A DNA stretch of 64,000 nt from Thermocrispum municipale DSM 44069 (GTDB taxonomy: Bacteria; Actinomycetota; Actinomycetes; Mycobacteriales; Pseudonocardiaceae), in the NCBI RefSeq assembly GCF_000427825.1, contig NZ_ATYT01000005.1, positions 62,001 to 126,000 of the forward strand. The letters are read 5' to 3'. Below, piece by piece: positions 51,493-54,813 of this stretch (within the stretch, counting starts at the first letter, position 1; each line of letters begins with the position of its first letter). The notes under the pieces were generated by a model. That model did no database searches and was not told the origin of the DNA. It worked only from the letters and a program-made list of their open reading frames with translations. A program made the position numbers and the translations under genes.

Positions 51493-52335
51493 GTGACCGT
51501 TGCACTCCTGGGACCTGCGGACATCCGCAGGCTGGCCGACGAGCTCGGGGTCCGGCCGACCAAGAAGCTCGGTCAGAACTTCGTGCACGACCCCAACACG
51601 GTGCGCCGCATCGTGCAGCTGTCCGGGGTCGGCGGCGACGACGTGGTGCTGGAAGTCGGGCCGGGGCTCGGCTCGCTGACGCTCGGTCTGCTCGCCACGG
51701 GCGCGTCGGTGCACGCGGTGGAGGTCGATCCGCTGCTGGCCGGTCGCCTGCCCGAGACGGTGGCCGAGCGCGGGGGCGATCTGGGGCGCCTGCACGTGCT
51801 GGCGGCCGACGCGTTGCGCTTGTCCGCACGCGATCTGACCGAGGCGCCGAACGCGTTGGTGGCGAATCTGCCCTACAACGTGGCGGTCCCGGTGGTGCTG
51901 CATCTGCTCGCCGAGTTGCCGTCACTGCGCACGGCGCTGGTGATGGTGCAGACCGAGGTGGCCGATCGCATGGCGGCAGGCCCCGGCAGCCGCAGCTACG
52001 GTGTCCCGAGCGTGAAGCTCGCGTGGTACGGAAGGGCAAGAAAGGTCGCTGCCGTGCCGCGCGCGGTGTTCTGGCCGGTGCCCAACGTCGACTCCGCCCT
52101 GGTCGCCTTCGAGCGCGGCGAGTCGCCCGCCGACGTCCCCGTCCAGGACGTGTTCGCAGTGGTCGACGCCGCTTTCGCGCAGCGGCGCAAGACGCTACGG
52201 GCCGCGCTGGCCACGTGGGCGGGCTCCGCGCCACGCGCCGAAGAACTGCTCCGCGCCGCCGGGATCGACCCGGCTACCCGGGGCGAGCAGCTCACCGTTT
52301 CGGACTTCACCCGGCTGGCGGCTGCGCGCCGGTAA
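51493..52335 (+). CDS. ksgA: 16S rRNA (A1518/A1519-N6)-dimethyltransferase
   Basis: The 280-residue rRNA methylase has [15 protein letters not shown], the SAM motif [16 protein letters not shown], the catalytic [10 protein letters not shown] and [15 protein letters not shown]. It methylates two adjacent adenines during late 30S assembly. GTG 51493 follows rpfB by 42 bases. Its loss often gives kasugamycin resistance. Confidence 0.96.
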
Positions 52336-52414
52336 CCGCTCGACGCAGCGTCAAGATCACCTCGGGCGCGCGCGGCGATCCGTGTGATGTGGAACAAGAA
52401 CGACCGGCCCGGTG

Positions 52415-52444
52415 TTGCCAGGAATGAGCAACATCGGCTGTAAT
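52415..52444 (+). promoter_or_regulatory. Probable promoter of the riboswitch-metN unit
   Basis: TTGCCA (52415-52420), an 18-base spacer and TGTAAT (52439-52444) precede the start of the SAM aptamer by about 10 bases, where transcription would be expected to begin. The unit is thus independent of ksgA. Confidence 0.5.
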
Positions 52445-52453
52445 GCTGGGGTA

Positions 52454-52542
52454 TCCATCCCGAGCGGCCGAGAGACCTGGCTCTATGACGTCGCAGCAAC
52501 CACCCGCCTCGGCGGGCAGGTGCTTCCGCCAGGACCGATGGA
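52454..52542 (+). ncRNA. SAM riboswitch (SAM-I/SAM-IV clan)
   Basis: The conserved core is readable: GAGAGA (52470-52475), TGGCTCTATGACG, GCAACC (52496-52501), a short CCGCC/GGCGG stem, and GGTGCTTCC (from 52519). P1 is TCCATC (52454-52459) with GATGGA (52537-52542). The 3' strand of P1 overlaps the Shine-Dalgarno GGAGG (52540-52544) of the following leader peptide. Binding of SAM, which stabilises P1, should therefore hide that ribosome site. S-box riboswitches usually control methionine and cysteine genes. A MetN-type ATPase follows. Confidence 0.85.
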
Positions 52543-52553
52543 GGAATTCTGAC

Positions 52554-52631
52554 ATGTATCGGTCTCGAATGTTGACGAAGCGTCGCGTCGTCGATCAGTG
52601 CAAGCGCACCGTCTGCGCTTGTTGCCGCTGA
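52554..52631 (+). CDS. Cysteine-rich leader peptide (25 residues)
   Basis: The ORF MYRSRMLTKRRVVDQCKRTV ends CACCR, with Cys at 16, 21, 23 and 24. It has a strong Shine-Dalgarno, GGAGG, nine bases upstream. The LTKRRxVDxC pattern matches the actinobacterial leader-peptide type (RRHVDLCR...) placed before sulfur-metabolism genes, where ribosome stalling at Cys codons senses cysteine. An exact 8-bp hairpin (CAAGCGCA/TGCGCTTG, 52601-52608 with 52614-52621) lies over these codons. The protein itself is probably not functional. Confidence 0.75.
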   Translation: MYRSRMLTKRRVVDQCKRTVCACCR

Positions 52632-52737
52632 CGGCCCATCTCGCCCGCTAAGTCCTTTTCTTCCTTTTCTTTGCAATCCACTCCGCATGCGCTGGGGAAG
52701 CGGTGTGCGTTGGGTTGCGCGGCTTCAGGAGACCGAC

Positions 52738-53781
52738 TTGATCACCGTTGACAACATCACCAAGACCATCCCGTCCGACGAACATCCGCCGTCCGCGCTG
52801 CGCGGGGTGAAGTTCGACATCCCGTCCGGCGCGATCTTCGGGCTGCTCGGCCCCGCGGGTGCGGGCAAGAGCACGCTGCTGCGGCTGCTCGGCCTGCGCG
52901 AGGCTCCCGAGGCGGGCACGGTGCTCGTCGACGAGCTGGACGCAGGCGAGCTGTCCGGTCGCCGGCTGCGTGACCTGCGCGGCCAGTTCGCGCTGGTGGA
53001 CTCGTTCGGCCTGCGTGCGGAGCGCACCGTCGCAGGCAACGTGGCGCTGCCGTTGGAGCGGCTCGGCCTGGACGGTGCCGCCCGGCGCGCCCGCGTCGCC
53101 GAACTGCTCGACCTGGTGGGCTTGACCAGGGCGGCCATCAGCTCGCCCGGTGAACTGAACGAGGGCCAGCGCCGTCGGGTCGTGCTGGCTCGCGCGCTCG
53201 CCACGCAGCCGTCCGTGCTGCTGCTCGACGAGCCGACGCTGGGCCTGGACGCCGAGCAGGCAGGCGGCGTGCTCGCCGCGATCGACCGGGCCCGTGCCGA
53301 GCTGGGCATCACCGTGGTGCTGGCCACCCGGGAGGCCGACGTGGTGCGTAAGGTGTGCGACGGCGTCGCGCTGTTCGCCGACGGGCGGCTGCTCGAGGCG
53401 GGCACGGTGCTGTCGCTGCTGACCGACCAGACCAGCTACACCGCGCACGCGCTGTTGCCGGCCGTGTCGTCGACGTCGCAGGTCGTCCGCGACTACGACG
53501 CTGTCGCCGACGTCCTGCTGGTCGGCCACGCCACGGTGGAGACGCTGCTGCCCGCGGCCGAGGACCGCAACGAGGTGCAGATCGCCACCATCAGCGGCGG
53601 CAAGACCCGCGTGGTGGAGACGCCGGTGGCCCGCTACCGGATCGGTGTCCGCGGCAGCAACGCCGAGCAGGCGCTGGCGTGGATCCGTGAGCACGGCGGC
53701 TTGGTCAGCGCCCAGGCGAGTGCTCCGGCCTCGGTGCGCGCTCGGCGCGCGGTGGTCGAGCAGCTGTTGCAGGCCGCCTGA
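52738..53781 (+). CDS. MetN-type methionine ABC transporter ATPase with NIL domain (orphan)
   Basis: The 347-residue protein has an ABC ATPase domain (1-235): Walker A GPAGAGKSTLL, signature NEGQRRRVVLARAL (variant of LSGGQ), Walker B VLLLDEPTLGLD and a switch in which the usual His is Arg (VVLATREADV). A C-terminal NIL domain (about 265-345) follows, the methionine-sensing domain of MetN. TTG 52738 is chosen because AGGAGA lies six bases upstream and MITVDNITKTI is the MetN start. No MetI permease or MetQ lipoprotein is adjacent; the next gene is ispE. Confidence 0.85.
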   Translation: MITVDNITKTIPSDEHPPSALRGVKFDIPSGAIFGLLGPAGAGKSTLLRLLGLREAPEAGTVLVDELDAGELSGRRLRDLRGQFALVDSFGLRAERTVAGNVALPLERLGLDGAARRARVAELLDLVGLTRAAISSPGELNEGQRRRVVLARALATQPSVLLLDEPTLGLDAEQAGGVLAAIDRARAELGITVVLATREADVVRKVCDGVALFADGRLLEAGTVLSLLTDQTSYTAHALLPAVSSTSQVVRDYDAVADVLLVGHATVETLLPAAEDRNEVQIATISGGKTRVVETPVARYRIGVRGSNAEQALAWIREHGGLVSAQASAPASVRARRAVVEQLLQAA

Positions 53782-53850: not shown

Positions 53851-54813
53851 GTGCTTGCCGTTGTACCACCTCCGGTGACCGTGCGAGTGCCGGCGAAGAT
53901 CAACCTGCACCTGTCCGTCGGTGACAAACGAGCGGACGGGTACCACGAGCTGACGACGGTGTTCCAGGCGTTGTCGCTGACCGACGAGGTCACCGTGGCC
54001 GCCGGGGACGAGCCGGGGGTCGAGGTCAGCGGGGAAGGCGCCGGCGACGTCCCGCACGGCGCGAACAACCTGGCCTGGCGTGCGGTGCGGGAACTGGCGG
54101 CACATGTCGGCCGCTCGGAGGACGAGACCAAGGTCCGGGTGGTCATCAACAAGGGCATTCCGGTCGCGGGCGGCCTGGCGGGCGGCAGCGCGGACGCCGC
54201 GGCCGCGCTGGTCGGGCTGGCCGCGTTGTGGCGGCTGGACATCAGCCGCGACGAGTTGATGCGGATCGGCGCCCGGATCGGCAGTGACGTGCCGTTCGCG
54301 CTCTCCGGCGGTACGGCGCTGGGGACCGGCCGCGGTGAGCAGCTGGTCCCGGTGCTGGGCAGGCACACGTACCACTGGGTGCTGGCGTTCAGCAATCGCG
54401 GACTGTCCACGCCGCGGGTGTACGGCGAGCTGGATCGGCTGCGCGAGGAAGGTGACCCGCCGCGGCTCGGCTCGCACCAGCCGCTGTTGGAGGCCCTGGC
54501 GTCCGGTGACCCACGTCAACTGGGCCTGCTGCTGGGCAACGACTTGCAGGCGGCCGCGGTGTCGTTGCGGCCGTCGCTGCGCCGCACGCTCCGTGCGGGT
54601 GTGGACGCCGGTGCGCTGGCCGGTATCGTTTCCGGGTCCGGGCCGACATGCGCGTTCCTGTGCACCGACGGCGACGCCGCGGTCGAGGTGGCGGCGCAGC
54701 TGTCCGGGGCCGGAGTGTGCCGGACGGTGCGTGTGGCGCAGGGGCCGGTGCCTGGCGCCCGGGTGATCAGCAGCGAACCGTCCAGACCGACGCCGCCCGA
54801 GGTGCATGCGTGA
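53851..54813 (+). CDS. ispE: 4-diphosphocytidyl-2-C-methyl-D-erythritol kinase
   Basis: The 320-residue GHMP kinase of the MEP isoprenoid pathway has [24 protein letters not shown] (substrate site), the GHMP motif [17 protein letters not shown] near residue 108, and [19 protein letters not shown]. It phosphorylates CDP-methylerythritol. Its presence shows that the organism makes isoprenoids by the MEP route, which bears on the reading of the HMG-CoA reductase at 19-20 kb as catabolic. Confidence 0.95.

Follow-up and report, generated by a model that had tools for sequence, protein, structure and literature searches.

The window analyzed here, a stretch of 64,000 nucleotides of Thermocrispum municipale DSM 44069 (contig NZ_ATYT01000005.1, positions 62,001–126,000), carries on its forward strand a compact unit in which an S-adenosylmethionine (SAM) riboswitch aptamer, the open reading frame (ORF) of a short cysteine-containing leader peptide, and the gene of an orphan ATPase related to MetN, a subunit of the methionine importer MetNIQ, follow one another. 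We propose that these parts form a two-tier cis-regulatory relay, with the SAM riboswitch acting first and the cysteine leader second, which feeds a repurposed MetN; our confidence in this proposal is evenly balanced. What the initial annotation of this DNA had observed is partly confirmed and its interpretation partly supported, and the regulatory pair, widespread in the family (Pseudonocardiaceae) and present elsewhere, is more interesting in its evolution than first described. The parts that carry the argument are the following.

52452–52544, forward strand: SAM-I (S-box) riboswitch aptamer (RF00162, 54.3 bits)
52455–52459, forward strand: 5′ strand of the P1 helix, CCATC (CCATC in 73/73 aptamer-bearing relatives)
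52537–52541, forward strand: 3′ strand of the P1 helix, GATGG (GATGGAG in 73/73)
52540–52544, forward strand: Shine–Dalgarno (SD) sequence of the leader, GGAGG, its GG common with P1 (read from the sequence)
52554–52631, forward strand: leader ORF, MYRSRMLTKRRVVDQCKRTVCACCR and a stop codon, ATG start, 25 codons, four Cys codons (frame and motif in 73/73)
52620–52622, forward strand: obligatory core Cys codon UGU, codon 23 (TGT in 64/64 unique in-register leaders)
52738–53781, forward strand: metN-derived gene of a predicted orphan pseudo-ATPase, TTG start, with a diverged C-terminal NIL domain (TIGR02314, 3dhw_C)

SAM aptamer and leader peptide

It had been proposed initially that the P1 stem of a SAM aptamer overlaps the SD sequence of a 25-residue leader with four Cys codons, and both the covariance-model search and the anatomy of the site bear this out. 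In the window-wide search, RF00162 matched the aptamer above its gathering threshold (54.3 versus 44.4 bits, E = 9.6e-10), and the last two bases of P1 (CCATC/GATGG) are the first two of the leader SD GGAGG. A covariance model of our own (R1) gives the aptamer 101.1 bits, the window sequence being part of its training set. Within positions 52340–52760, no Rfam family besides RF00162 was found at E ≤ 1 in an output showing only the best match per clan, so that a weaker match to SAM-IV (RF00634) is possible.

For comparison, the upstream regions of 74 loci in 40 genera were assembled, comprising the window's own locus, 29 loci from the orthologue search, four further records, and 40 stretches picked for other genera; the four further records (three metagenome-assembled genomes of Actinophytocola, and Haloechinothrix halophila) are identical here to other loci in the set. 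The aptamer core is present in 73 of the 74 regions (69 distinct), the lone region without it (L121) belonging to a genome with two copies of the locus, the first of which does carry the aptamer, and cmscan at the gathering threshold detected the aptamer in all 20 loci submitted (on the minus strand in 12). The overlap of P1 with the SD sequence is kept in all 73 regions, as CCATC and GATGGAG with the leader start 2–10 nt after GATGGAG. Because of this anatomy and its conservation, SAM likely gates the translation of the leader, in keeping with the earlier suggestion that the two devices act one after the other and that SAM would turn off translation of the leader. Matches to RF00162 occur in all 200 genomes drawn from the family, two per genome in most; the other site in the T. 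municipale genome lies directly 5′ of the threonine synthase gene (TIGR00260, 285.9 bits; cut-off, 167.1) and has no leader. The thrC sites of actinobacteria belong to the same aptamer family, for which OFF logic is expected, but in the unit described here P1 overlaps the SD sequence of the leader ORF and not that of the regulated gene.

The leader ORF is found in all 73 aptamer-bearing regions as RR-x-[VI]-D-x-x-RR-T-x-x-[AG]-C followed by 1–10 codons and a stop, in a motif search that tolerated up to three substitutions, and the N-termini and lengths vary widely while the motif stays. The ratio of nonsynonymous to synonymous polymorphism (pN/pS), calculated for 63 unique 18-codon blocks, is 0.312 in frame versus 1.66 and 2.30 in the other two frames, indicating that the peptide is translated and selected, and thus the leader frame proposed for the window is conserved in its relatives. 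Arg10, Asp14, and Cys23 are invariant in an alignment of 34 leaders. The four-Cys tract, which the initial annotation had treated as the sensing element, proved not to be a conserved feature: the 73 leaders contain one (26 leaders), two (25), three (12), or four (10) Cys residues, placing that of the window at the rich end, and what is conserved is the motif with one Cys encoded by UGU.

The core Cys codon and kinship to known cysteine leaders

The core Cys codon is TGT in all 64 unique in-register leaders, which are related by descent and are not independent events, and likewise in two leaders shifted by one codon (L059 and L060). The other Cys codons of the leaders are divided into 41 TGC and 30 TGT, and 39 ORFs of the window, picked by base composition, use 85 TGC and 26 TGT. 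The constancy of the core UGU in the metN set despite the GC-rich genomes possibly reflects wobble decoding or the decoding speed of a regulatory codon, or else the pairing of GUCG with CGAY. This pairing is present in 98.8% of cells versus a mean of 98.0% in synonymous shuffles, 21 of 500 of which reach 98.8%.

Cysteine leaders located 5′ of actinobacterial cys operons were already proposed in 2005, according to the accessible text of PMC1262725. The window leader matches the model of a mycobacterial Cys-rich leader, NF042933 (leader_Ms5788A), with 20.1 bits (E = 3.7e-4), far under the cut-off of 45, and does not match NF042934 (cut-off, 27) at E ≤ 1. Among 34 leaders, five of them from non-metN loci, compared at the lax threshold of E ≤ 1, 15 match Ms5788A, seven NF042934, and three Ms4527A. 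When five metN leaders were scanned singly, three matched only Ms5788A (20.2, 17.3, and 12.5 bits; cut-off, 45), two (containing one and two Cys) matched no NCBIfam model at E ≤ 1, and none matched NF042934. The metN leaders are therefore at best a diverged branch of the known cysteine leaders. With the Ms5788A polycysteine attenuators they have in common a short ORF, a C-terminal Cys, and an Arg/Asp core, but they score far under the cut-off, often contain one Cys (the conserved poly-Cys tract typical of Ms5788A is lacking in the 26 single-Cys leaders), are led by an SD sequence, and are predicted to be gated by a riboswitch. The mycobacterial polycysteine ORFs are, in contrast, termed leaderless in the title of the 2020 work of Canestrari et al. 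With the NF042934 leaders they have in common an R-x-[HV]-V-D-x-x-R ... C core, as seen in a leader of the same genome at another locus (L169, MTSAAVLLVSRRHVDLLRVASALCRPAS; contig C27, 81165–81227, minus strand), which has one Cys (UGC) and lies 157 nt 5′ of the start of a nitrite/sulfite reductase gene. This leader and another non-metN leader (L176) pass the NF042934 cut-off of 27 with 38.6 and 36.6 bits, respectively; the search of the T. municipale genome for SAM aptamers listed none at L169. In a further genome (G454), a similar leader also precedes a nitrite/sulfite reductase gene, and this recurrent position suggests a link of such leaders to cysteine.

From the obligatory Cys, the weak kinship, and the similar leaders at nitrite/sulfite reductase genes, we infer that the metN leader senses cysteine, and ribosome stalling set by the cysteine supply, as suggested initially, is plausible. 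Rather unlikely, in our estimation, is a leader that acts as an arrest peptide or as a trans-acting micro-peptide sensing a signal other than cysteine, in which the conserved Arg and Asp residues would act in the exit tunnel. Such a peptide would account for the conserved motif with its invariant Arg10, Asp14, and Cys23, for the sufficiency of one Cys in 26 of the 73 leaders, and for the weak scores with the known cysteine leaders, whereas the retention of at least one Cys in all 73 metN-locus leaders and the leaders located 5′ of the nitrite/sulfite reductase genes (in the same genome and in G454) point to cysteine.

From the leader to the metN gene

According to the relay that we propose, the short P1 helix would form upon binding of SAM and hide the GG of the leader SD, leaving the leader untranslated, and without SAM, P1 would open and the leader would be read. 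The leader would then act like the actinobacterial cysteine leaders, the ribosome being slowed at UGU with the nascent chain RRxVDxxRRTxxxC, and the slowed ribosome would keep the downstream mRNA open for metN, through release of its ribosome-binding site (RBS) or through a block of Rho. Hence, high SAM would mean off, and low SAM together with low Cys-tRNA would mean on. The step from leader to metN, like the cysteine sensing itself, is inferred. The distance from the leader stop to the ATPase start is 60–215 nt (median 95) in the 73 loci, and the following features lie in the leader ORF of the window or between it and the ATPase gene.

52600–52622, forward strand: predicted 9-bp hairpin over the Cys codons, lineage-specific (stem 52600–52608 / 52614–52622)
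52653–52672, forward strand: pyrimidine tract in the spacer between the leader and the ATPase gene, a possible Rho loading region (from sequence only)
52727–52731, forward strand: SD sequence of the ATPase gene, AGGAG (from the sequence)

An 8-bp hairpin holding the Cys codons had been described in the initial annotation. A hairpin is indeed predicted in the window, with 9 bp and covering all or part of three Cys codons, but its stem is not conserved: it is paired in 54.5% of cells across the family, a value that 127 of 500 synonymous shuffles reach, and the hairpin was rejected as a family feature, so that a four-Cys tract borne on a hairpin is particular to this lineage (L059 and L060, with their shift of one codon, were left out of this test). 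A second candidate stem (LT/VVD) was also discarded, being paired in 35.5% of cells and equalled by 476 of 500 shuffles. Release of the RBS through ribosome stalling at the Cys codon found no support either; on folding of the 69 unique leader-to-metN RNAs with and without a masked ribosome, the metN SD was opened in six and closed in four, and with shuffled spacers it was opened in 3 of 73, the mean unpaired fraction of the SD being 0.216 for real and 0.207 for shuffled spacers. The pyrimidine tract would be compatible with a step that involves Rho.

An alternative explanation, which we regard as possible though distinctly less than probable, is that SAM is the sole signal and translation of the leader merely keeps Rho off the untranslated spacer (at 52653–52672), the Cys codons being passive. 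The P1/SD overlap in 73/73, the presence of the pyrimidine tract, and the negative outcome of the RBS-release folding test all agree with it. Precedents are also available in Mycobacterium tuberculosis, where, according to the accessible text of PMC11260477, a B12 riboswitch controls ppe2 via an upstream ORF (uORF) and the authors regard Rho-dependent termination as the likely cause of the loss of mRNA at the metE B12 switch. A leader of this kind, however, would require neither a conserved peptide (pN/pS 0.312) nor an invariant UGU, and its motif would not need to be kept while the N-terminus and length vary.

A catalytically degenerate MetN

The output had been read initially as a MetN-type ATPase with a NIL domain. 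Its descent from MetN stands: the window ATPase matches TIGR02314 (MetN) with 176.1 bits over residues 1–239, the cut-off of 499.7 not being reached, and a five-sequence profile aligns with E. coli MetN (3dhw_C) over residues 1–315 (E = 1.5e-56). Because of this alignment and the orthology to the MetN of metNIQ operons behind the same SAM-leader unit, the protein is MetN by descent over its full length. Orthologues at E ≤ 1e-70 are encoded in 119 of 140 genomes of the family, and a plasmid search with the protein gave no match at E ≤ 1e-50. The NIL domain of the window protein itself is less clear than that of its relatives; PF09383 gives 15.2 bits (E = 0.02) on a C-terminal fragment versus a Pfam gathering threshold of 24, compared with 28–37 bits in six relatives, and a NIL search of the T. 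municipale genome found nothing at E ≤ 0.001. The AlphaFold model, based on five sequences, is poor (mean predicted local distance difference test score, 49.6), with a beta-alpha-beta-beta-alpha-beta order hinted at in residues 255–325. Foldseek ranked MetN first, but with template modeling scores of 0.20–0.28, and this search was set aside as evidence for the fold.

That the output is an ordinary MetN transport ATPase is contradicted by its motifs. The window protein has kept an intact Walker A and DEPT motif, including the Walker A Lys and the Walker B Glu, and the Q-loop Gln, the signature Gly, and the switch His are replaced, with LNEGQ as the signature and ATRE where E. coli MetN has ITHE. 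The Q-loop Gln couples the ATPase of an ATP-binding cassette (ABC) transporter to its permease. MetN proteins with their partners retain the Walker A Lys, Q-loop Gln, signature Gly, Walker B Glu, and switch His in 8 of 8 cases. Among 39 orphan rows, counted after dropping seven duplicates, Gln, Gly, and His are all lost in 38; the Walker A Lys is lost in five, and the Walker B position is Asp in 28. The exception (L236, genome G060) is an orphan MetN with intact catalytic motifs and no adjoining metI or metQ, and it is the sister of a full-operon protein in the tree; it could serve as a reference for a recent loss. The orphans L037–L040 and L237 have Thr in place of the Walker A Lys, making their ATP binding doubtful. 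The column aligned with Asn295 of E. coli MetN, which binds L-Met according to the accessible part of PMC12357092, holds a residue other than Asn in the window protein and is variable in both the orphan and full-operon sets. Taken together, the output protein is a predicted MetN-derived, catalytically degenerate pseudo-ATPase.

A function as a working transport subunit for another permease, in the manner of the multitask ATPases, is very improbable. The intact Walker A and DEPT motifs of the window protein would suit such a role, but other residues stand in place of its Q-loop Gln and switch His, as they do in 38 of the 39 orphans, and MetI and MetQ were not found in the same genome.

Origin from a metNIQ operon

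The absence of a permease and binding protein, noted initially for the neighborhood, extends to the genome of T. municipale (98.7% complete), in which the best MetI-like match has E = 3.9e-4 and 25% identity and no NlpA/MetQ was found at E ≤ 0.001. Among 20 loci for which wide flanks were read, by contrast, eight have the unit complete as SAM-leader-metN-metI-metQ with ispE next, while metI and metQ are present in none of 34 narrower loci (about 1.5–2.5 kb read downstream). Counted by genus among the 28 read downstream, the full metNIQ operon occurs in eight, and the other 20, including that of the window, lack metI and metQ at the locus; with a single exception among these 20, metN has turned into a predicted pseudo-ATPase. 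In one genome (G006), the metN orthologue (L156), missed at the search threshold of E ≤ 1e-70, likewise carries the SAM-leader unit; its MetQ matches NlpA at E = 9.4e-89, and its MetI matches the MetI model at E = 4.7e-50, under the cut-off of the model. The 'orphan ATPase' of the window is the remnant of a SAM-leader-metN-metI-metQ operon.

In the metN tree, the orphan/full-operon label needs three changes, and one orphan (L224), which has lost the Gln and His residues on its own, branches within the full-operon proteins; the MetN degeneration therefore occurred at least twice. The ratio of nonsynonymous to synonymous substitution rates (dN/dS) is 0.020–0.235 in 16 orphan pairs, indicating purifying selection on the orphans, and 0.196–0.306 in three full-operon pairs. 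Among the eight full-operon proteins, the conservation of the nucleotide-binding domain (NBD) is 0.80 versus 0.66 for the NIL domain, and among 20 orphan rows, hand-picked from 19 genera with L236 left out, that of the NIL domain is 0.67 versus 0.61 for the NBD. The NIL domain is the more conserved of the two in 145 of 190 orphan pairs versus 1 of 28 full-operon pairs, a comparison weakened by the different divergence of the two sets.

It could be asked whether metN and its regulators are a decaying relic, drifting without function after the loss of metI and metQ, as would agree with the lost catalytic residues, which in 5 of 39 orphan rows include the Walker A Lys, and with the partners gone from the same genome. 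This explanation is very improbable, since dN/dS is low (0.02–0.24), the NIL domain is under constraint, and the SAM aptamer and leader are present in all 34 orphan loci (L033 and L035–L067).

The SAM aptamer and leader at other genes

A search with the R1 model gave a match at E ≤ 1e-4 in 163 of 394 genomes from the class, and 49 matches were read, two of them in the home family. In 34 of the 47 outside it, a long open frame begins within 60 nt of the aptamer (a rough count, which misses AT-rich genomes), and four of the 47 are followed by a leader-like ORF with Cys (L176, L205, L184, and L189, the latter two by eye). The leaders of L184 and L189, both in family f37, end in a DCMRxxSxxC-like sequence and are possibly a second leader type; the gene downstream of L189 encodes a nitrite/sulfite reductase. 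Three genomes of one genus (g5) have, besides the thrC-like sites, 11 SAM sites (L160 and L168 not counted; 4 of the 11 aptamers under the gathering score), and behind nine of them stands a leader of the RxHVDLxR type or a related one that ends in a stop, in one case (L164) without the core Cys. Seven downstream proteins were scanned and assigned to an ABC ATPase, SBP_bac_5 (two), a luciferase-like monooxygenase of the NtaA/DmoA type, DAO, a BPD permease, and nitrite/sulfite reductase. The core codon of the non-metN leaders is mostly UGU, with UGC in L161 and L165; the SAM-plus-leader pair thus extends, by these predictions, beyond metN, and only the metN set shows a strict UGU.

Several side observations were made at these loci. 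In G004, G168, and G081, genomes of one genus, up to five extra SAM aptamers occur, most followed by cysteine-type leaders (L158, L159, and L161–L167), and the genes behind them encode solute-binding proteins, an ABC ATPase, a DmoA-type monooxygenase, and FAD oxidoreductases, possibly an organosulfur regulon. L164 (g5) has a Gly codon (GGT) at the core Cys position and so offers a natural test of whether the Cys is needed. The P1 helix of the SAM-I aptamer of L154 runs straight into the SD sequence of a GNAT acetyltransferase gene (Pfam) without a leader, as does, by eye, that of L181, L185, and L190.

The surroundings of the unit in the window comprise the following features.

51493–52335, forward strand: ksgA/rsmA, the upstream neighbor (TIGR00755, 243.8 bits)
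52415–52444, forward strand: weak promoter-like TTGCCA / 18 nt / TGTAAT just 5′ of the aptamer (by eye)
53851–54813, forward strand: ispE, the downstream neighbor (NF002870, 468.8 bits)

The matches to TIGR00755 and NF002870 place the ATPase gene between ksgA and ispE, as annotated. Of 73 relatives, 44 have a −10-like match containing TA no farther than 24 nt from the aptamer, a count made without a chance control, and a scan with the consensus promoter found no promoter reaching its threshold.

Discussion

Referring to known systems, the closest working parallel found for the predicted arrangement is the ppe2 B12 riboswitch-uORF of M. tuberculosis, in which, as far as the accessible text of PMC11260477 goes, the riboswitch masks the SD sequence of the uORF, and its translation is needed downstream. 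It differs in the ligand, in the AUGA termination–reinitiation coupling, and in the uORF, which is partially conserved and in the same accessible text not described as an amino-acid leader. In Streptomyces lividans, a leader ORF with Cys and Met codons (metL) precedes metNIQ, but its authors call it methionine-dependent, and the accessible text of PMC8079986 names no SAM aptamer for metNIQ. The window protein resembles MetN of the E. coli MetNIQ importer, which has a C2 regulatory domain (PMC12357092, accessible part), in its homology over the full length, and metNIQ is complete in eight related genera; it differs in lacking MetI and MetQ, in its lost catalytic residues, and in the Asn295 column. 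None of the papers listed by a literature search, with subscription papers and preprints outside its scope, describes a SAM riboswitch placed ahead of a cysteine leader as a serial device, or a MetN pseudo-ATPase.

Several findings weigh against the relay as proposed. At the leader, 26 of the 73 have a single Cys, unlike the polycysteine attenuators, and the kinship to known cysteine leaders is weak, with scores of 12.5–20.2 bits versus 45; UGU is possibly kept for the CGAY/GUCG pairing and is not strict outside the metN set. Further downstream, a gap of 60–215 nt is far for simple coupling, and folding with a masked ribosome gives no support for RBS release. At the output, the NIL domain of the window protein lies under the Pfam cut-off and its AlphaFold model is poor. 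In the relay, the output would be a NIL-based sensor or scaffold rather than a transporter subunit, as the operon comparison suggests. A more extended scenario seems possible but speculative: a portable AND-type sulfur gate, in which the SAM riboswitch licenses a Cys-sensing leader, would have been kept while what it controls changed from a methionine importer to a NIL amino-acid sensor devoid of catalysis, the ATPase degenerating more than once.

If the proposed relay is true, one mRNA leader would sense the sulfur pathway at two ends, one after the other, and would represent a natural two-input gate made of a riboswitch and a leader peptide. Since the pair of SAM aptamer and leader recurs before other genes, some of them from families related to sulfur, it could assist in assigning substrates to uncharacterized uptake systems and oxidoreductases. 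The predicted MetN pseudo-ATPase would be a clear case of a transporter subunit without its transporter, which may have become a sensor.

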